Below are positions 45,733 to 55,605 of a DNA stretch of 64,000 nucleotides, piece by piece. Source of the DNA: an uncultured Flavobacteriaceae bacterium (GTDB lineage: Bacteria; Bacteroidota; Bacteroidia; Flavobacteriales; Flavobacteriaceae); NCBI GenBank assembly GCA_938029725.1, contig CALHGE010000009.1:62001-126000 (forward strand). The letters are read 5' to 3'. Under the pieces are notes generated by a model. The model worked only from the letters and a program-made list of their open reading frames with translations, made no database searches and was not told the origin of the DNA. The stretch's first letter is position 1; the number at the start of each line of letters is the position of its first letter. The position numbers and the translations under genes are program-made.

Positions 45733-46170
45733 TTAAGTCGGCCAATCATAGTTTTCTTCGTCTAGATAAGTAACGCCCAGTTCAATTGCTGTTACTTCAC
45801 CAAACTCTTCATTTAGTGTGATCCAAAATTCATCATTAGAATGACTGATGAAAAAATCATACTCCTCTATTTCCCAATCCGTAATCAAGGAACCGAAAAT
45901 CAACTTTTTAGCAATATCGATTTTCGTTCCAATTATTTTATGTCCGTTAAAAGTTAAATCAAGGTTATTCGTTCGTAAATAGCCTAGTCGATTTCCTTCA
46001 TTTAGGTAAAAAGTGAGCCGTAGTTTTAGTTGATTGAATTCGAGTAAAACTTCATCCTCATCATCTTCGTCAATTCTTTTTCGGTTTGGTATACCCAAAA
46101 TTTCTAGAATGTCTTTTTGAGTCATCCCAAATTTTAGATTCGCTATTCCGATTTTTGGTTTTAGTTGCAT
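45733..46170 (-). CDS. Uncharacterised protein at the end of the peptidoglycan-recycling cluster
   Basis: 145 residues, no signal peptide, acidic. The N-terminus KIGIANLKFGMTQKDILEILGIPNRKRIDEDDEDEVLLEFNQLKLRLTFY resembles the start of SmpA/OmlA-like folds (a KxGMTxxxVxxxLGxP pattern) but without an export signal; the rest is beta-rich. I do not recognise a named family. It is 17 bases downstream of anmK on the same strand, so it may be co-transcribed with amino-sugar recycling genes. An immunity-like or SUKH-like protein is another possibility given size and acidity. Confidence 0.75.
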   Translation of the reverse strand: MQLKPKIGIANLKFGMTQKDILEILGIPNRKRIDEDDEDEVLLEFNQLKLRLTFYLNEGNRLGYLRTNNLDLTFNGHKIIGTKIDIAKKLIFGSLITDWEIEEYDFFISHSNDEFWITLNEEFGEVTAIELGVTYLDEENYDWPT

Positions 46171-46187
46171 TGATTGGCTTTATTATA

Positions 46188-47264
46188 TCAATTAGGTAAA
46201 TACACTACACCACTAGAAGAATCTCTTTTCGCGCCTGTTACTGATTTCAGTACATTGGTTTCTTGTGCTACACGAAGTGCTCCCATTAAAGCAAAGACCA
46301 AAGCCTCTTTAAATTCGATCAGCTCTTTTTTCGTTGCTACAATTTCGGTATCATTATCTAATTTTTCTTGAAGTACTTCAATTAAAAAATGGTTTAAAGC
46401 GCCACCTCCAGTAACAAACAAAGAGTTCGATTTTTTAACACTATTTAAGTTCACTTGTTGCCCCACTTTTTCGCAAATATGGTGAATAGCGGTATGTAAT
46501 AGATTCTCGGTAGTATCATCTGTACTATCAACAATGGGTGCTACTTCTTCCACAAACCACTCATATCCGATTGATTTTGGATGTGGTAGTATATAGTATG
46601 TTAACCCGTTTAATCTATCGAGCATAGGTTGATTTATATTTCCGGAACGCGCTAATTCACCTCCCTTATCATAGTCCAAATCAATTTTTCTGGTGATGTA
46701 ATTTAAAATCATATTAGCCAAACCAATATCATAAGCAATTCGCCTTCCTTTTTGTTCTAATGATATATTACTAATTCCTCCTAGATTCAAACAAAAGTCA
46801 TACTGTCCGAAAAATAACTGGTCACCAATCGGCACCAGAGGAGCTCCTTGACCGCCTAAGGCGACATCATTGGTTCTAAAATCACAGATGACTTTACAGC
46901 CACTTTCATTTGCTAAATGCTGCCCAGAACCGATCTGAAATGTGAGTCCGTGTTTGGGTTGATGATGCGTTGTATGTCCATGACTAGCAATGTAGTCAAG
47001 GTCAAGTTTTTTGTCCTTAATAAATTGTTTCGCTTCTTTTCCTAACCATGTGCCGTAGGTATTATGGAATTGTAACAATTCGTTTGCCTTTAGGTAGATG
47101 GCGTCTTTTAGCTCCAATTGCATCTCATCAGAATAGGAAAGGCTCTTGGTTTCCACAATCTCAAAAGACCATTCACCTGCATCTTTAGTGATATGACAAT
47201 AACAGAGGTCTAGGCCATCTAATGATGTTCCTGACATGAGGCCCAGTATTTTGTAAATTTTCAT
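46188..47264 (-). CDS. anmK: Anhydro-N-acetylmuramic acid kinase
   Basis: 358 residues. The family tag GLMSGTSLDGLDL is at residues 8-20; further motifs are SHGHTTHHQPKHGLTFQIGSG, DFRTNDVALGGQGAPLVP, FCLNLGGISNIS, AYDIGLANMILN and the C-terminal VTGGGALNHFLIEVL. It opens and phosphorylates 1,6-anhydro-MurNAc to MurNAc-6-P in the cytoplasm. It follows nagZ by 6 bases. With murQ downstream of the DeoR gene, it gives the central two steps of cell-wall sugar recycling. Confidence 0.95.
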   Translation of the reverse strand: MKIYKILGLMSGTSLDGLDLCYCHITKDAGEWSFEIVETKSLSYSDEMQLELKDAIYLKANELLQFHNTYGTWLGKEAKQFIKDKKLDLDYIASHGHTTHHQPKHGLTFQIGSGQHLANESGCKVICDFRTNDVALGGQGAPLVPIGDQLFFGQYDFCLNLGGISNISLEQKGRRIAYDIGLANMILNYITRKIDLDYDKGGELARSGNINQPMLDRLNGLTYYILPHPKSIGYEWFVEEVAPIVDSTDDTTENLLHTAIHHICEKVGQQVNLNSVKKSNSLFVTGGGALNHFLIEVLQEKLDNDTEIVATKKELIEFKEALVFALMGALRVAQETNVLKSVTGAKRDSSSGVVYLPN

Positions 47265-47270
47265 AGGCTC

Positions 47271-48833
47271 TTAGTTTATGGTAACTGGTAGCATTCCTTT
47301 GGCTTCGATTTTTCCTAAAAAATGATCGGTTGCCACATCTTGAAATTCAGCAAAAGTCTGATAGGCAATAACAATAGCTAAAGCTTCATCACTTTTGAAA
47401 AGATTCAAAACATAAGGGTTTCCAAAAAGATATAAAACCACATTTTTGGTTTGTATCAATTCGTTTATAAAATCAATTTCCTCTTGAAGCAGGCCAAAGT
47501 TATTAGCTGGTTTTACTTGCGGAGGTGTCAACAAAACTAGAATATTTTTCTCTTTTTTAAGCACTATTTTTGTTTCCTGTAAAGCATCTAAAATTTCTTT
47601 TGAAGCTTGTTCTAAAGCGGATCGTTTTATGGTTAAGGTAGAGAAATCAGTAGCTCTAAAAGTTGTGATATCTGCTTTGGTGCCTCTTAGTAAAGTCAAA
47701 CTATTTATGGCAAGTTTACGATTGAGTTGACTGTCCGCTTCAGGTCTTAAATTTGAATTTGATATTTGAGCTTGCAAAGCTTTTTCTTTTAACTTCCATA
47801 AGCGTTGAAAACTTTCTTCTATTTGTTCTTCGGATGCCTTATTAAGGATATTCGCAATTCCTTCAGGCACATTTTCAGCGAAGCATAAAACATCATTGCC
47901 TGCGTTGAAAGCAAGCCATTCTAATTCTCCTTTAATCGGATAGTTTTTAGATACGGCATGCATGTTTAAAGCATCGGAGATCACAAGGCCGTCGAAGCCC
48001 ATCTCTTCTCTTAAAACTCCTTTGATAATTTCTTTTGATATACTTGAAGAAATGGTCTTCCCGTTCGCTAAAGAAGGTACAGATAAATGTCCAGCCATTA
48101 CGGCGTCAACCCCAGATTCAATCAATTTCTGGAACGGATAGAGCTCATTAGCAATTAATTCTTCTTTGGTTTTGTCAATCAATGGAAGTCCCAAATGTGA
48201 ATCGGTAGCGGTATCACCATGGCCGGGAAAATGTTTGATACTTGTCAGAACACCTTCGCTTTGTGTTCCTTTTATATAGGCTAAGGCTTTCTGTGTTACT
48301 TTAATCTTGTCTTCTCCAAACGAGCGATACCCAATAACCGGATTATTGGGGTTGTTATTGATATCAATACAGGGAGCCAAATTCCAATGAATTCCCGCTG
48401 CTTTACAATCTCGTGCAATATTTCTTCCTACTTCGAAAATTAAATTATCATGGCCTTGAATCGCTCCTAAGGTAATTGCATACGGGTATTGCGGTGTGTT
48501 TTCAATTCGCATGGCCAAGCCCCATTCTGCGTCAATAGCAATCAGTAAAGGATATTTGGAAACACTTTGATAGCGTAGAATTAGGTTTTGAAGCGTTTCA
48601 AAACTATCTGCGTTATATATAACTGTTTTTTCACCTTCATAGTTGGTAGCAGCACTTGCGCGACTGTGAAAAAAACAGATGGCACCTATACCGTGGTTTT
48701 GTATTAAATTTTCTAAGTTTTGAATTTCTTGCTCGGTATCATTAACAAAGGCTGCGGGCATAAATAGTTGCCCGACTTTCTCAGAAAAGGATAGTACGTT
48801 CTTAACACTTTTATAAGCTACTGTTTTATTCAT
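47271..48833 (-). CDS. nagZ: Glycoside hydrolase family 3 beta-N-acetylglucosaminidase, NagZ-like
   Basis: 520 residues, no signal peptide, so cytoplasmic. The GH3 barrel has LLIAIDAEWGLAMRIE, WNLAPCIDINNNPNNPVIGYRSFGED and the NagZ catalytic loop SIKHFPGHGDTATDSHLGLP with the Asp-His dyad; the nucleophile Asp is in FDGLVISDALNMHAVS. A second alpha/beta domain fills about residues 360-520, as in Bacillus-type NagZ rather than the single-domain E. coli form. It releases GlcNAc from GlcNAc-anhydroMurNAc (peptides). It is 2 bases from the transporter gene and 6 bases from anmK. Confidence 0.93.
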   Translation of the reverse strand: MNKTVAYKSVKNVLSFSEKVGQLFMPAAFVNDTEQEIQNLENLIQNHGIGAICFFHSRASAATNYEGEKTVIYNADSFETLQNLILRYQSVSKYPLLIAIDAEWGLAMRIENTPQYPYAITLGAIQGHDNLIFEVGRNIARDCKAAGIHWNLAPCIDINNNPNNPVIGYRSFGEDKIKVTQKALAYIKGTQSEGVLTSIKHFPGHGDTATDSHLGLPLIDKTKEELIANELYPFQKLIESGVDAVMAGHLSVPSLANGKTISSSISKEIIKGVLREEMGFDGLVISDALNMHAVSKNYPIKGELEWLAFNAGNDVLCFAENVPEGIANILNKASEEQIEESFQRLWKLKEKALQAQISNSNLRPEADSQLNRKLAINSLTLLRGTKADITTFRATDFSTLTIKRSALEQASKEILDALQETKIVLKKEKNILVLLTPPQVKPANNFGLLQEEIDFINELIQTKNVVLYLFGNPYVLNLFKSDEALAIVIAYQTFAEFQDVATDHFLGKIEAKGMLPVTIN

Positions 48834-48835
48834 TT

Positions 48836-50098
48836 TTAAATTTTTGCTTTACCGAAATCAGCTGGGTATTTGAGATATCTCAAAATCACAAATGCAGGAA
48901 GGGCAGCCAGTACTACCCATATAAAGAAACCATCGTAGCCTAGCCATTCTTGCATATAACCACTGATTAGACCAGGTAACATCATGCCTAGGGCCATAAA
49001 ACCAGTAGCTAATGCATAGTGCGATGTTTTAGAATTCCCTTCGGCTACATAAATTAAGTAAACCATAAAGCCTGCAATGCCGAAACCATAGCCGAATTGT
49101 TCTACGATAACAGTACCAATTACGGCCCAAGCTTCTGTAGTTTCAGTAACGGCTAACAATGCGTAAAGCGCATTCGGTGCATTGAGTGAGATTAGCATTG
49201 GTAGCATCCATTTTTTTAATCCTTGACGTGAGATTAATACGCCACCGAGAATACCTCCGATAGTTAAAAAAATAACACCAATTGTTCCGTAAATGGTGCC
49301 AACTTCGGTGGTGCTATACCCTAATCCGCCTACCGATGTTGGATCTAATAGAAATGGAGAAGCCATTTTTACTAATTGCGATTCACCTAATCTGAAGAAT
49401 AAAATAAACGTTATGGCCAAGCCCATACCTGGTTTGCTAAAAAAGGAGGTAAAAACTTCAAAAAAACCTTTTGGTTTTTCGAGTGCTATAGCTCCTGAAC
49501 TTTCGAATTTTGGGGTTACAAAGAAATTCGATAGGGTCATCAGCAACATGAGCGATCCTGCGCATATCATGGTGTACGACCAGGCTTTTGTATTATCTCC
49601 ATATTTATTTTCGAGAAATCCTGCTAGCACAACTAATAGCCCTTGGCCAGTTACACTTGCTAGTTTGTAAAATACCGAGCGCATGCCAACAAAAAACGAT
49701 TGTTTTTCTTCAGTTAGGCCAATCATGTAATAGCCGTCAGTTGCAATATCATTTGTGGCAGAGGCAAAAGCAACCATCCAAAAACAGGCTAGACTCGCTA
49801 CGAAAAAGATATTTGTTGGCAATGATAAACCTATCGCTAAAAGTGCTACGGAGGCAAGTAATTGCATTCCTAAAAACCAATTTCGTTTTGTGCTTTTAAG
49901 ATCTACAAAAGGGCTCCATAGTGGTTTTATAACCCAAGGAATGTATAATAAACTTGTATATAAACCTAAATCAGAATTACTAAAACCTAATCTTTTGTAC
50001 ATTATAACCGAAACGGTAACTACTAATGCATAGGGTAATCCTTGAGCAAAATAGAGACTCGGTACCCAAGCCCAAGCCCATTTGTTTTTTTGAATCAT
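48836..50098 (-). CDS. ampG: MFS transporter, AmpG-like muropeptide permease
   Basis: 420 residues with about 12 membrane helices. WVPSLYFAQGLPYALVVTVSVIMYKRLGFSNSDLGLYTSLLYIPWVIKPLWSPFVD is the AmpG-type N-terminus, and CFWMVAFASATNDIATDGYYMIGLTEEKQSFFVGMRS is another conserved segment. AmpG imports GlcNAc-anhydroMurNAc peptides with protons. It abuts nagZ, which strongly supports this substrate over other sugars. Other MFS family members share parts of the fold, so substrate is inferred mainly from context. Confidence 0.85.
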   Translation of the reverse strand: MIQKNKWAWAWVPSLYFAQGLPYALVVTVSVIMYKRLGFSNSDLGLYTSLLYIPWVIKPLWSPFVDLKSTKRNWFLGMQLLASVALLAIGLSLPTNIFFVASLACFWMVAFASATNDIATDGYYMIGLTEEKQSFFVGMRSVFYKLASVTGQGLLVVLAGFLENKYGDNTKAWSYTMICAGSLMLLMTLSNFFVTPKFESSGAIALEKPKGFFEVFTSFFSKPGMGLAITFILFFRLGESQLVKMASPFLLDPTSVGGLGYSTTEVGTIYGTIGVIFLTIGGILGGVLISRQGLKKWMLPMLISLNAPNALYALLAVTETTEAWAVIGTVIVEQFGYGFGIAGFMVYLIYVAEGNSKTSHYALATGFMALGMMLPGLISGYMQEWLGYDGFFIWVVLAALPAFVILRYLKYPADFGKAKI

Positions 50099-50236
50099 AT
50101 GATAAGTTCAAGTTTTAAAAAAAAATGATAGGCTAGGATTTTTAGAAAAAATTCAGCCTTTTAGCAGAACATCTTCTGCGCTTCAGATTGCCCACAGCTA
50201 TCTTTGTTTCACCATTCAAGGAGGCAATCCATTAAA

Positions 50237-51775
50237 TCAATTTTCGTTCTTCGTATTTTGTACTTTATGTTTTGATTTTAAATGTACAATTATCGGTTTA
50301 GATTCTCTTCCAAAGAAATCAATAAAAGTCATAGCGATGTATTTTCTTTTCTTGCTTATTTCTGAGGGAAGAATTAGTTCTGTTTTATTTTGAATAGCTA
50401 GTTTAGCGATTAGTTTATTAATCGGGTAGCTGTCTTTTTTGTTTTTACCAGAGGGATAAATCATAACATATCGAAATGAATTTAAATTTTTGTGTGTCAG
50501 TTTAATAGATTCATTTTCTACACTGCTGATTTTTAGGTCAATTGGATTTCTATTCGTGCGAGAGGCCAACGCCGAAACTGGCGGGAGTGCCGTTTTTTTA
50601 TAATATTTCCTCTTCAGGTATTTTAATACATCTTCATTATCATTCATTAGACTTTTTGCACTAAAAAAAGCGTTCCCTTGAACCACATTTTTTTCGCGGG
50701 CATAATTAATTTGATTTGGAAGTTCTTTTTTGTGATCCCAAGCCTTATCGTTGTTATTTCTAATTTTATATGGGCCGTTACCGATATAGAGATTTGTATT
50801 TTCACTTTTGTTAGACCACCAGTCAACAATTTTACGGTGCGAAGCTACAGGAAGCTTCATGCTCCAATATACTTGAGGAATTAAATAGTCTAGCCATCCA
50901 TTTTTCATCCACAATAAAGGATCTGCATATAAATCATCATAGGTAGTTTGCCCCGCTTTCGTATCGGAACCGTTCGAGTCTGTAGAATTATTTTTCCAAA
51001 CCCCAAAAGGACTCACACCAAACTGCACCCAAGGTTTTCGAGTTTTGATAATTGCATGACTGTTTTTGATTAGAGAATCAATATTGCTGCGTCGCCAGTC
51101 TTCTAGTTTTTGGTTGGGAAGCGCACAGTTATAATAAGAAGTAGTATCATTAAAAACTTCACCTTTTATGGTGTAAGGATAGAAGTAATCATCAAAATGA
51201 ATCGCATCTACATCGTAATTCGAAACAACCTCGTCGATAACAGAAATCATTTTTTGTTGTACTTCAGGAAGTCCGGGGTCGTAGTAGTATTTCTTTCCGT
51301 ATTTCAACATCCATTCGGGATGTAAATTGTAATCGTGTGTTGGACTTAGAAGCTCAGTTTTTAAATCAAAGGTTGCTCTATATGGGTTGAGCCAAGCATG
51401 AAATTCCATTCCTCGTAGATGCGTCTCGGTAATCATCCAACTCAAAAGTGCTGATTTTGAAGCCGAGATTTCACCTTCTGTTCCGCTGAGAAATCGAGAC
51501 CACGGTGCATGGCTAGATTCGTAGAAAGCATCACCAGCGGTTCTGATTTGCACTATTGCTGCATTAAAGTTGAGGTCTTGGTAAAAATCGAGTATTTCGA
51601 GAAAATCCTTCTTTTGTTTTTCAGTGGAATCGTTTCCATTTTTTGGCCAGTCGATATTTACAACGGTAGCAACCCAGAACCCTCTAAATTCTGTTCTAGG
51701 TTGCACGCTAGGTTTGAAAACCGAGCACGAGCTCAAAGTTATAAAGAGCACTAATAATAAAAGTATTCGCAGCAT
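50237..51775 (-). CDS. GHL10 (DUF187) glycoside hydrolase-like lipoprotein
   Basis: 512 residues. A lipoprotein signal (LLVLFITLSSCSVFKPS) precedes a GHL10 (beta/alpha)8 domain: EFRGFWVATVVNIDWPKNGN, FNAAIVQIRTAGDAFYESSHAPWS, GMEFHAWLNPYRATFD, DAIHFDDYFYPYTI with acidic residues at the barrel mouth, and WLDYLIPQVYWSMK. A C-terminal beta domain covers roughly 390-500. Some relatives cleave peptidoglycan-associated glycans (for example denuded glycan strands in the E. coli DigH protein). Its place among peptidoglycan recycling genes fits a periplasmic or surface cell-wall glycosidase feeding AmpG. Confidence 0.88.
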   Translation of the reverse strand: MLRILLLLVLFITLSSCSVFKPSVQPRTEFRGFWVATVVNIDWPKNGNDSTEKQKKDFLEILDFYQDLNFNAAIVQIRTAGDAFYESSHAPWSRFLSGTEGEISASKSALLSWMITETHLRGMEFHAWLNPYRATFDLKTELLSPTHDYNLHPEWMLKYGKKYYYDPGLPEVQQKMISVIDEVVSNYDVDAIHFDDYFYPYTIKGEVFNDTTSYYNCALPNQKLEDWRRSNIDSLIKNSHAIIKTRKPWVQFGVSPFGVWKNNSTDSNGSDTKAGQTTYDDLYADPLLWMKNGWLDYLIPQVYWSMKLPVASHRKIVDWWSNKSENTNLYIGNGPYKIRNNNDKAWDHKKELPNQINYAREKNVVQGNAFFSAKSLMNDNEDVLKYLKRKYYKKTALPPVSALASRTNRNPIDLKISSVENESIKLTHKNLNSFRYVMIYPSGKNKKDSYPINKLIAKLAIQNKTELILPSEISKKRKYIAMTFIDFFGRESKPIIVHLKSKHKVQNTKNEN

Positions 51776-51807
51776 TTATATTTTGACTCAAGCGTTACGA
51801 TACAAAC

Positions 51808-53727
51808 CTAATCAAACTTATGCCTCACAAAAGCTTCCATTGCAGCATAAGCAGAAAGACCAAGTTTAGTATATCTTTTTGCGGTATCACGATTTCGTTC
51901 TTCAGCGCGCATCCAGAATTCTCTAGAATCATCACCCTGAAACATGACACCATCTTTTTGTGATTGATGTGCAAAAATAGCATTGCGCTTTTTTAATACT
52001 TGCCCCGGACTCATAGGTACGGCCATCTCGATCTCATTGATATCCCATTCATGCCACGCGCCACGGTATAGCCAAAGCCAACAATCTTTCATATATGGTT
52101 CAGATTTTAAGCTTTTCATTGCTTCAAAAACGGCATCAAGACAAACACGGTGTGTACCATGCGGGTCAGCCAAGTCACCAGCAGCAAATATTTGATGCGG
52201 TTTTATTTCTTGAATGATATTTACCATTATAGCTGTATCTTCTTCTGAAAGATTATTCTTTTTTATAGTTCCTGTTTCATAGAAGGGTAAATCAAGAAAA
52301 TGAACCTTAGAGTCTTCTAGGCCCAAATAACGCGTAGCCGCGTAAGACTCCCCGCGTCTAATATTGCCTTTAAGCTGCCTTACTTCAGGGGAATCAAAAT
52401 TACTTTCCTTCCTAGCTTTTATAGAATCTATTATGATCTGCGCTTCCGCAGAGCTAGAAATCTGTTTTGAAATCTCAGCGTATTTTCTAGCGTCCATATC
52501 AGACACAGCAATGTTTCCAGAAGTTTGATAGACTACATGTACTTCATGACCTTGCTCAATTAATCTGTCAAATGTACCTCCCATTGAAATTACATCGTCA
52601 TCAGGGTGAGGGCTGAAAATAATAACTCGTTTTTTTATTGGTGTTGCTCTTTCAGGTCTATTCGTATCGTCAGCTTTCGGTTTTCCACCTGGCCAGCCTG
52701 TAATAGTATGCTGAAGACGATTGAACATCTTAATGTTAAGGTCATAAGAATCTTGGGTCATGAGTAAATCGGCCATCCCATTGTCGTTGTAATCCTTATC
52801 CGTCAGGCTCAAAATAGTTTTATCCATTTTGGTGCAAAGCCATACAATTGCCTTTGCTGTGCGCTCCTCAGTCCATTCACAAGGCCCTACTAGCCAAGGG
52901 GTTTTGTTTCTTGTTAATTCGCTGCCAGCTCCTGTATCTAATACAAAGGTACAGTTCTTATGGTTTTGAAGATAGGTGGCTGGAACATGTGATGACACCG
53001 CTTCTTCAATTGTTTTTTTAATGATATTAGCTTTATTCTGACCCCAGCCGAGAAGCACAATTCGTTTTGCATTTCGAAGGGTAGAAATACCCATTGTAAT
53101 TGCCCTTCTAGGAACATTATCAATACCTAAAAATGAAGGTGCAGCATCAACTCTTGTAATGTGATCTAAGGTGATAACTCTAGTTCCAGAATTGTAATGT
53201 GAACCAGGTTCGTTAAAACCAACATGGCCCGTTCGTCCGATTCCTAGAAGTTGAAAATCAAGCCCTCCGAAATCTTTTATTTTTTTCTCATAGGATAAAC
53301 AGTAGTCAACTACCGCGTCATTAGGGACTTTACCGTCTGGAATATGAATATTTTCAGGAAGTATATCAATATGATTAAACAAATGCTCATGCATGAAATA
53401 GTGGTAACTCTGAGTATTTTCTTTATCCATAGGTAGATACTCATCTAGATTAAAAGTGACTACGTTTTCAAAACTAAGCCCTTCCTCTTGATGCATGCGT
53501 ACCAATTCTTCGTAAACTCGAATAGGAGATGAACCTGTCGCCAAACCAAGAACACACATTTTGTTTGACAATTGTTTTTTCTTAATAAGATTGGCAATCT
53601 CCTCAGCCACTTCAATAGATGCGTCATTTGAGTTTTCAAAAATAACATTGTGAATCTTCTCAAAACGAGTTTCTTCAAATTGTCCTACGGGTTTGTAACG
53701 GATGTGAGTTTCACTTCTTGTTGCCAT
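51808..53727 (-). CDS. nagB: Glucosamine-6-phosphate deaminase fused to a PIG-L deacetylase domain
   Basis: 639 residues, against about 260 for NagB alone. Residues about 20-300 are a NagB domain: GLATGSSP (62-69), FNLDEYLPMDKENTQSY (92-108) and GIGRTGHVGFNEPGS (163-177), keeping the His and Glu of the active site but with Thr where E. coli has Asp141. Residues about 365-639 are a PIG-L/LmbE-type zinc deacetylase domain with SPHPDDD (372-378) and DPHGTH (521-526), so metal ligands are intact. NagB converts GlcN-6-P to fructose-6-P and ammonia. The second domain could remove acetyl from GlcNAc-6-P; this is inference. It is head-to-head with the DeoR gene. Confidence 0.95.
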   Translation of the reverse strand: MATRSETHIRYKPVGQFEETRFEKIHNVIFENSNDASIEVAEEIANLIKKKQLSNKMCVLGLATGSSPIRVYEELVRMHQEEGLSFENVVTFNLDEYLPMDKENTQSYHYFMHEHLFNHIDILPENIHIPDGKVPNDAVVDYCLSYEKKIKDFGGLDFQLLGIGRTGHVGFNEPGSHYNSGTRVITLDHITRVDAAPSFLGIDNVPRRAITMGISTLRNAKRIVLLGWGQNKANIIKKTIEEAVSSHVPATYLQNHKNCTFVLDTGAGSELTRNKTPWLVGPCEWTEERTAKAIVWLCTKMDKTILSLTDKDYNDNGMADLLMTQDSYDLNIKMFNRLQHTITGWPGGKPKADDTNRPERATPIKKRVIIFSPHPDDDVISMGGTFDRLIEQGHEVHVVYQTSGNIAVSDMDARKYAEISKQISSSAEAQIIIDSIKARKESNFDSPEVRQLKGNIRRGESYAATRYLGLEDSKVHFLDLPFYETGTIKKNNLSEEDTAIMVNIIQEIKPHQIFAAGDLADPHGTHRVCLDAVFEAMKSLKSEPYMKDCWLWLYRGAWHEWDINEIEMAVPMSPGQVLKKRNAIFAHQSQKDGVMFQGDDSREFWMRAEERNRDTAKRYTKLGLSAYAAMEAFVRHKFD

Positions 53728-54040
53728 TATGCTGCTGTAATTCGTTAAATTATGAATTGTTTGTAAATGCTTATTATGGCAAAAGTAGGCATTATAATTA
53801 CAATTTGCTGTTTTTTGCTATATATTTTGCTGTTTTCTGCGTTTATAAAAATATTAATTAATTAAAACAGTAAAAAACGGCATTCTAATAAATTTCCTAT
53901 CTTTACAGAGTAATTTATTTTGGACGATAAAAAAATCACCCAATTTCGCCCATTCCGCAAAGAGATAATTGGAGACAACCTTTGTTGTATTCTTTAGAAT
54001 TCAGGAAAAAGAACAAAGATTAGGGCAGTACCTTTATGAT
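53728..54040. promoter_or_regulatory. Divergent control region of nagB-PIG-L and deoR-murQ
   Basis: About 310 AT-rich bases between divergent genes. On the minus strand tacttttg (53780-53787) is a perfect TAnnTTTG -7 element for nagB. On the plus strand tatcttta (53898-53905) matches 7 of 8 for the DeoR gene. The repeat operator described separately lies between them. Confidence 0.5.
53804..53840. promoter_or_regulatory. Candidate DeoR operator: two direct repeats TTTGCTGTTTTYTGC 22 bp apart
   Basis: tttgctgttttttgc at 53804-53818 and tttgctgttttctgc at 53826-53840 agree in 14 of 15 positions and start exactly 22 bases apart, about two helical turns. They are just upstream of the nagB -7 element. 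DeoR-family regulators often bind spaced direct repeats, so this is a good candidate for the site of the adjacent regulator. Confidence 0.6.
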
Positions 54041-54790
54041 ATGTTAAAAGAAGAACGACAACAGACGATATTGAACGAGGTAGAACTGCATAATCGCATA
54101 CTATTAACTGATATTGCAGAAACACTAGATGTATCTATAGATACCGTTCGTAGAGATGTAAAAGAACTAGATGCAGAGCAGAAACTTCGAAAAGTACATG
54201 GTGGCGCAATTTCTTTGGGTTTTACAACTAGTAGCACTCGAAATACGAATATTTATGCGCTTGCCGAAAAAACAAAAATTGCTAAAAAAGCATTGTCACT
54301 TTTAAAAGAAGGTGCTGTTATTTTTGTAGATGGAGGTACCACTTGCTTGGAATTAGCACGATTGATACCCGTAGATCTTGAATTAACTTGTTTTACGCTT
54401 AGTTTACCGGTGGCCATGGAACTAGCTTCAAAACCAAATGTGACTGTTATTTTTATTGGTGGCCAGATTTCTAAGGATGCTCAAATATCTATTGGTGCAA
54501 ATGCGATTCTTAATCTTTCAGAAATAAAGGTTGACTTCAGCTTTATAGGAACAGGATATGTAGACCCTCAGTATGGCTTAACGGAATTTGATTGGGACAT
54601 TGTACAGCTAAAAAAAGCCGTAATTAAGGCCGCTAAGAAAACGGTACTTTTGTGTATCTCTGAGAAATTGAATTCGCAACATCGTTATAAAACCTGTGAT
54701 ATTAATGCGATTAATACGATGATTACCGAATTAGTACCAGAAAATGACCTATTAAGAAGCTTTAGAACTCACGACATTCATCTTTTATAA
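54041..54790 (+). CDS. DeoR-family transcriptional regulator of the amino-sugar cluster
   Basis: 249 residues from ATG 54041; the track start is a TTG at 53969 that adds 24 residues foreign to the family, and MLKEERQQTILNEVELHNRI is the normal DeoR beginning. The HTH is at about 19-45 (LLTDIAETLDVSIDTVRRDVKELD), followed by KVHGGAI. The effector domain resembles a ribose-5-phosphate-isomerase-like fold: KEGAVIFVDGGTTCLELA, FIGTGYVDPQYGLTEFDWDI. These repressors respond to phosphorylated sugars. It is divergent from nagB and 5 bases before murQ, so GlcNAc-6-P, GlcN-6-P or MurNAc-6-P is the likely inducer. Confidence 0.92.
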   Translation: MLKEERQQTILNEVELHNRILLTDIAETLDVSIDTVRRDVKELDAEQKLRKVHGGAISLGFTTSSTRNTNIYALAEKTKIAKKALSLLKEGAVIFVDGGTTCLELARLIPVDLELTCFTLSLPVAMELASKPNVTVIFIGGQISKDAQISIGANAILNLSEIKVDFSFIGTGYVDPQYGLTEFDWDIVQLKKAVIKAAKKTVLLCISEKLNSQHRYKTCDINAINTMITELVPENDLLRSFRTHDIHLL

Positions 54791-54795
54791 CTTTT

Positions 54796-55605
54796 ATGAA
54801 GTACCTCAAAATCACTGAAACTCCGTCTAATCATGATAATTTAGAACAATTAGATACCGTTTCTATATTGAATAAGATGAACCAAGAAGATCAAAAGGTG
54901 GCGGATGCTTGTGCCTTAGTCATTCCTCAAATTACCAAGCTAGTGGATGCCCTTACTGAGCGTTTTATTGATGGAGGACGTCTTTTTTATATTGGTGCAG
55001 GAACTAGCGGAAGACTGGGTGTTTTAGATGCATCTGAAATTCCTCCAACGTTTGGCATGCCGCATGAAAGGGTGGTGGGGATAATTGCAGGAGGAGATAC
55101 TGCTATTCGAAAAGCTGTTGAAAATGCCGAGGATGATCGTTTGCAGGCATGGAAAGATTTAAAAGTTCATGAAATTAATGCAAATGATGTTGTTGTTGGA
55201 ATTGCGGCTTCAGGAACCACGCCCTATGTTTTAGGAGGCATTGCAGCAGCTAAAAAGAACGGAATTCTTACCGCTGGAATCACAAATAACCCAGGTTCAC
55301 CTCTGGCTGAAGCTAGCGATATTCCAATTGCTGTTAATGTGGGTCCAGAATTTGTTACCGGAAGTACGCGTATGAAAAGCGGTACATCTCAAAAACTTGT
55401 TTTGAACATGATTTCTACCGCTCTAATGATAAAGATCGGCAGAGTAAAGGGAAACAAAATGGTAAACATGCAGCTAACCAATGACAAGTTAGTAGATCGC
55501 GGAACGCGATATGTAATGGAGGGCTTAGGTATAGGCTATGCGAAAGCAGCTGAATTACTTCATGAACATAGATCTGTGAAAAAGGCCATAGAGGCTGGTC
55601 GCTAA
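54796..55605 (+). CDS. murQ: N-acetylmuramic acid 6-phosphate etherase
   Basis: 269 residues, near the shorter Bacteroidota length (E. coli about 298). ITETPSNHDNLEQLDTVSILNKMNQED, YIGAGTSGRLGVLDASEIPPTFG (phosphosugar loop), GIIAGGDTAIRKAVENAEDD, GIAASGTTPYVLGGI and NVGPEFVTGSTRMKSGTSQKLVLNM are all MurQ motifs. It removes D-lactate from MurNAc-6-P to give GlcNAc-6-P. It follows the DeoR gene at 5 bases. The C-terminus ELLHEHRSVKKAIEAGR is a small helical UBA-like tail that closes earlier than in enterobacteria. Confidence 0.96.
   Translation: MKYLKITETPSNHDNLEQLDTVSILNKMNQEDQKVADACALVIPQITKLVDALTERFIDGGRLFYIGAGTSGRLGVLDASEIPPTFGMPHERVVGIIAGGDTAIRKAVENAEDDRLQAWKDLKVHEINANDVVVGIAASGTTPYVLGGIAAAKKNGILTAGITNNPGSPLAEASDIPIAVNVGPEFVTGSTRMKSGTSQKLVLNMISTALMIKIGRVKGNKMVNMQLTNDKLVDRGTRYVMEGLGIGYAKAAELLHEHRSVKKAIEAGR

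Follow-up and report, generated by a model that had tools for sequence, protein, structure and literature searches.

A NagB–PIG-L fusion protein is a candidate bifunctional GlcNAc-6-P deacetylase and GlcN-6-P deaminase in Bacteroidota

A NagB–PIG-L fusion and its predicted active sites

In an uncultured marine Flavobacteriaceae bacterium, we found that the 639-amino-acid (aa) open reading frame (ORF) at positions 51808 to 53727 (complementary strand) of the window, that is, of the whole 64,000-nucleotide stretch analyzed, encodes a full-length NagB–PIG-L fusion of the NF002557/PRK02122 family. This protein probably acts as both GlcNAc-6-P deacetylase and GlcN-6-P deaminase and thereby takes the place of both NagA and NagB in the salvage of amino sugars, as judged from its sequence and from the distribution of its relatives. 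In the proposed mechanism, the PIG-L/LmbE domain would coordinate a single metal through H374, D377, and H526, use D376 as the general base, and take acetate off GlcNAc-6-P, which would be supplied by MurQ or, in chitin loci, by a kinase. The NagB domain would then turn GlcN-6-P into fructose-6-P and ammonia. We infer that GlcNAc-6-P is the substrate on which the PIG-L domain is active and that the intermediate may be channeled between the PIG-L and NagB sites.

The fusion matches NF002557/PRK02122 (“glucosamine-6-phosphate deaminase-like protein”) over aa 6 to 638 with 1049.9 bits (cutoff, 384) and the nagB profile TIGR00502 with 260.6 bits (equivalog cutoff, 236.9). Two Pfam domains score above their cutoffs, Glucosamine_iso (PF01182, the NagB domain) at aa 34 to 258 (positions 52954 to 53628, complementary strand) and PIG-L (PF02585, the core of the PIG-L/LmbE-type deacetylase domain) at aa 370 to 536 (52120 to 52620, complementary strand); the conserved C-terminal portion of the PIG-L part extends beyond the PF02585 core to aa 639. 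These matches confirm the assignment of a PIG-L domain to the NagB protein in a preliminary description of this DNA. Family-profile and Pfam searches found no NagA domain (TIGR00221, amidohydrolase fold) in the fusion protein.

Metal ligands and general base make up the HXD1D2 + H signature of the LmbE superfamily (PMC4101496). The fusion has this signature as H374-P-D376-D377 plus H526, within an HPDDD motif at aa 374 to 378 (52594 to 52608, complementary strand) and an HGTH (HxxH) motif at aa 523 to 526, which contains H523 and H526 (52150 to 52161, complementary strand); both motifs were placed by the alignment of the fusions and by the definition in the same review. H374, D377, D378, and H526 are identical in all 126 fusion copies, while D376 and H523 are each kept in 125, the exceptions being L122 (a MAG) and L065. 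The two motifs, already reported as intact in the preliminary description, are thus not a product of chance. We predict that H374 and D377 are metal ligands, with H526 as the third, and that D376 is the general base. The spacing between D377 and H526 is 149 residues, compared with 97 to 148 residues in the review (PMC4101496).

The NagB half can be compared with well-studied deaminases. The catalytic residues of Escherichia coli NagB are D72, D141, H143, and E148, of which D72, H143, and E148 align with D95, H168, and E173 of the fusion. The position of D141 is occupied by T166 (window positions 53230 to 53232) and, across the fusion copies, by T in 100/126 and by N in 25/126. Bacillus subtilis NagB (2bkv), a monomeric NagB of type I, likewise has N at this position; it shares its fold and the equivalents of D72, H143, and E148 with the fusion, which differs from NagB type I by the T or N at the D141 equivalent and by its second enzyme domain.

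An AlphaFold2 model of the fusion, built from an alignment of 43 sequences, is confident, with a mean pLDDT of 88.7. Its NagB part matches 2bkv with a TM score of 0.97 over the target. Beyond the NagB fold, the best PDB match is the diacetylchitobiose deacetylase 8bgo from Pyrococcus chitonophagus, whose chains A, B, and C were found by Foldseek with the C-terminal part at E values of 2e-9 to 3e-9 and TM scores of 0.64 to 0.65 over the target. According to these matches, the modeled PIG-L half has the Rossmann-like fold expected of the LmbE/PIG-L superfamily. Diacetylchitobiose deacetylase is also active on GlcNAc (PMC9779004).

Genomic context of the fusion

The fusion gene belongs to an island (Flavobacteriaceae window, 45733 to 55605) in which four further recognizable genes share its strand. 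These encode AnmK, an anhydro-N-acetylmuramic acid kinase (46188 to 47264; 504 bits, cutoff 436), a NagZ-like GH3 beta-N-acetylhexosaminidase with a KHFPGHG motif (47271 to 48833; 149 bits, cutoff 207), an AmpG-like transporter of the MFS type (48836 to 50098; 175 bits, below the cutoff of 350), and a GHL10 (PF02638) glycosidase-like protein identified by Pfam (50237 to 51775). The GH3 protein has the NagZ motif KHFPGHGDTATDSH, although it scores below the NagZ cutoff. A 145-aa ORF without a family match (45733 to 46170, complementary strand) lies at the end of the island. Divergently oriented on the forward strand are a gene for a DeoR/GlpR-family regulator, recognized by family profiles (54041 to 54790), and murQ (54796 to 55605; 371 bits, cutoff 168), whose product, N-acetylmuramic acid 6-phosphate etherase, makes GlcNAc-6-P. 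The island had been described as encoding AmpG-like uptake, NagZ, AnmK, MurQ, and NagB without nagA, and this gene content holds, with AnmK and MurQ above and the NagZ-like and AmpG-like proteins below their family cutoffs. The DeoR-family regulator and the GHL10 glycosidase are two members not named in that description. Maribacter algarum, Maribacter arcticus, Allomuricauda, and related genomes (L069 and L071 to L074) share this gene order.

nagA was found neither in the island nor anywhere in the assembly of this bacterium (3.8 Mb, 92% complete, 81 contigs), in which the best match to TIGR00221 reaches 28.9 bits (cutoff, 226). The nearest two relatives with names, M. algarum and M. arcticus, gave no nagA either; the genome search proposed at the outset came out as predicted. 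Apart from the fusion, PIG-L is represented in the assembly by BshB1 (297 bits) and by a long Mca-like protein (L011:1-2022, complementary strand), and the sole other protein with a NagB fold is 6-phosphogluconolactonase. Thus, there is no other obvious GlcNAc-6-P deacetylase in the searched sequence.

Fusion genes occur in loci of other kinds as well. In Flavobacterium hydrophilum (L099), which lacks nagA, the fusion is part of a chitin locus that also encodes GH18, GH20, and a large chitinase with two GH18 domains, and in Tamlana agarivorans (L092), also without nagA, it lies beside GH20 and neighbors of SusC/D size. Bacteroides ihuae, a control genome, has the short form and no nagA match at an E value of 1e-10. 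By synteny, the chitin-locus NagB of Flavobacterium johnsoniae (Fjoh_4557) appears to be a NagB–PIG-L fusion (L098:9911-11911, strain CI04). Deletion of this nagB had no effect on growth on chitin, for which the authors invoke redundancy, and attempts to express the protein in E. coli failed (PMC5127042). The F. johnsoniae genome also has nagA and other nagB-like genes.

Co-occurrence of the fusion and nagA in Bacteroidota

Across a comparison set of 248 Bacteroidota genomes, 101 have the short-form fusion, 34 have nagA, and 179 have murQ above the respective cutoffs. murQ is present in 100 of the 101 fusion genomes, and nagA is absent from 76 of them (at ≥90% completeness) even when NagA-like proteins below the cutoff are counted. 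Where NagB has no PIG-L partner, nagA is present in 8/9 genomes, whereas it is present in only 34/126 (lenient nagA definition) or 25/126 (strict) of those in which NagB has such a partner, short and long forms being counted together; genomes without NagB have it in 1/113 cases. The lenient definition adds nine genomes in which the top nagA-like amidohydrolase reaches about 150 to 226 bits, and the effect is then weaker and persists. Fisher's test gives a P value of 3.7e-4 (lenient) or 4.7e-5 (strict), and of 0.004 when restricted to the four families in which both kinds of NagB occur, values that serve as a guide only because the genomes are related. nagA had been expected to differ between genomes with and without the fusion, and the comparison came out in the predicted direction. 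If either nagA or a PIG-L partner is counted, G148 is the only one of 135 NagB-encoding genomes that lacks a candidate deacetylase. Named loci gave access to 43 genomes that carry the fusion, of which 24 lack nagA.

A tree of 88 fusion proteins requires at least 17 changes in the presence or absence of nagA, and the PIG-L site stays intact. The pattern therefore does not reflect one old event. Judging from these genomes, most of the Bacteroidota that have the pathway may use the same two-domain solution.

A split version and a long form

An earlier contingency table based on a looser NagB set gave a P value of 0.0096, and the exceptions to it led to a second form of the fusion. When genomes with a NagB-like protein and with neither the fusion nor nagA were searched with the PIG-L half alone, a split pair and a long form were revealed. 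In G219, which has no nagA, nagB and a gene for a PIG-L relative are adjacent on the same strand, in this order (L164:8175-9826, complementary strand), and the separate PIG-L protein is 42% identical to the C-terminal half of the fusion. Most of the other apparent exceptions carry a protein of about 790 aa that is a diverged NagB–PIG-L fusion. Unlike the short form, which is a full member of PRK02122/NF002557, the long form stays below the family cutoff (218 to 230 bits; cutoff, 384) and below the Pfam thresholds. Alignment of the two forms with hhalign gives a probability of 100 over 553 columns (E = 1e-46) with the same domain order. The long form retains the NagB DGH motif as well as an HHDD motif that is followed further on by an invariant H635.

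The long form is present in 24 genomes, none of which has the short form, and eight of them lack both nagA and a NagB above the family cutoff. Of 12 long-form loci read over their whole length, 7 have murQ no more than about 8 kb from the long form. Both the split pair and the position of the long form near murQ point the same way as the predicted deacetylase role. Extending the argument to both forms, we lean toward the view that two anciently diverged NagB–PIG-L fusions, of 640 and 790 aa, are the principal enzyme for the conversion of GlcNAc-6-P to fructose-6-P in Bacteroidota and that NagA is an accessory that has been gained and lost repeatedly.

The long form is highly conserved, with examples at L161:6289-8622 (forward strand) and L165:5806-8181 (complementary strand). 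A cell-wall amidase gene adjoins the long form in some genomes.

Genomes with both enzymes and alternative functions

Three observations argue against a simple exchange of NagA for the fusion. First, G068, Flavobacterium limicola, and Flavobacterium segetis have an intact fusion gene with nagA immediately upstream and a gene for GlcNAc 2-epimerase adjacent or nearby. Second, the PIG-L domain is no less constrained where nagA is present (the PIG-L/NagB ratio of log identities is 0.88 in nagA-positive hosts and 0.90 in the others), with no relaxed selection seen on the domain in such hosts; the domain is thus not simply redundant with NagA. Third, murQ is present without a NagB-type gene, the fusion, or nagA in 47 of the 248 genomes, so that other fates of GlcNAc-6-P must exist. 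The premise that MurQ activity calls for a deacetylase, implied in the preliminary description, is consequently too strong as a general statement. One possibility is that NagA was added to a fusion that serves as the core enzyme; the other is that the PIG-L domain acts on an additional substrate. The unaltered growth on chitin of the F. johnsoniae nagB deletion and the T or N in place of E. coli D141 also count against the proposed bifunctional role.

Pairs of nagA and the fusion are located at L103:8796-11908, L095:8779-11917, and L050:8003-11112 in Flavobacterium-type genomes. L103 also has genes for a GlcNAc 2-epimerase and for a protein with a sialic-acid acetylesterase domain and is likely a sialic-acid locus. 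An apparent loss of the PIG-L domain in the nagA-positive genome G099 was dismissed, since its two NagB-only partial sequences (L174 and L175) stop exactly at contig ends and are assembly fragments.

The most serious alternative is that the PIG-L domain deacetylates another amino sugar, such as GlcNAc, chitobiose, GlcNAc-anhMurNAc, MurNAc-6-P, or GalNAc-6-P, and that a further step then yields the GlcN-6-P used by NagB. We regard it as unlikely, though worth weighing: the diacetylchitobiose deacetylase that represents the nearest solved fold works on unphosphorylated sugars, nagA adjoins fusions with an intact PIG-L site in the three loci above, and the constraint on the domain is independent of nagA, but MurQ supplies GlcNAc in phosphorylated form, the fusion to NagB suggests that GlcN-6-P is the direct product, and nagA is far more often missing where PIG-L is fused. 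It is considerably less plausible that the PIG-L domain is a noncatalytic sensor or scaffold and that another, unrecognized enzyme deacetylates GlcNAc-6-P. The 47 murQ-positive genomes without NagB and nagA, which imply unknown routes for GlcNAc-6-P, would fit such an enzyme; against it, metal ligands and general base show little or no variation across the 126 copies, and conservation is slightly higher in the PIG-L domain than in the NagB domain. That nagA is present and was missed, through gaps in an assembly that is 92% complete in 81 contigs or through divergence of NagA, is very improbable, given that the two Maribacter genomes and 76 of the 101 fusion genomes (≥90% complete) also lack it and that nagA scores are bimodal, lying either above about 150 bits or below 40 bits with a gap between.

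Relation to known enzymes

A bifunctional fusion would catalyze the same reaction as NagA (TIGR00221) with an unrelated fold and sequence family and would thus represent a non-orthologous replacement. With the LmbE/PIG-L deacetylases (archaeal diacetylchitobiose deacetylase, MshB, and BshB), it shares the HXDD + H motif; the substrates of these enzymes are diacetylchitobiose, GlcNAc-inositol, and GlcNAc-malate, whereas GlcNAc-6-P is proposed for the fusion. The family name of PRK02122/NF002557 is silent on the role of the PIG-L half, for which a deacetylase role is a new proposal. Our searches of the open-access literature found neither an enzyme of the LmbE/PIG-L superfamily acting on GlcNAc-6-P nor a prior role for the combination of NagB with PIG-L/LmbE, for PRK02122, or for such a bifunctional enzyme, and the literature search found no GlcNAc growth phenotypes for the named species without nagA.

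Should the proposed function be true, it would supply the step that is missing from peptidoglycan salvage and from the use of chitin across a large phylum. The absence of nagA in Bacteroidota would then not imply an inability to use GlcNAc, and pathway reconstructions would change accordingly. A phosphorylated amino sugar would join the substrates of the PIG-L/LmbE superfamily, and both the well-populated, functionally vague PRK02122 and the almost unrecognized long-form family would gain a concrete, testable role.

Putative regulation of the island

The DeoR gene most likely starts at ATG 54041 rather than at TTG 53969, because the relatives align from that ATG, and its start was corrected accordingly. 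In the divergent promoter region, two exact direct copies of GCAnAAAACAGCAAA occur 22 bp apart at 53804 to 53818 and 53826 to 53840 (complementary strand). The repeats are natural candidates for DeoR operators, and the divergent regulator probably acts through these two conserved sites to control both the fusion operon and deoR-murQ. The divergent promoter stretch can be aligned across six related genomes, and an inverted partial copy of GCAnAAAACAGCAAA is found at 53864 to 53882.
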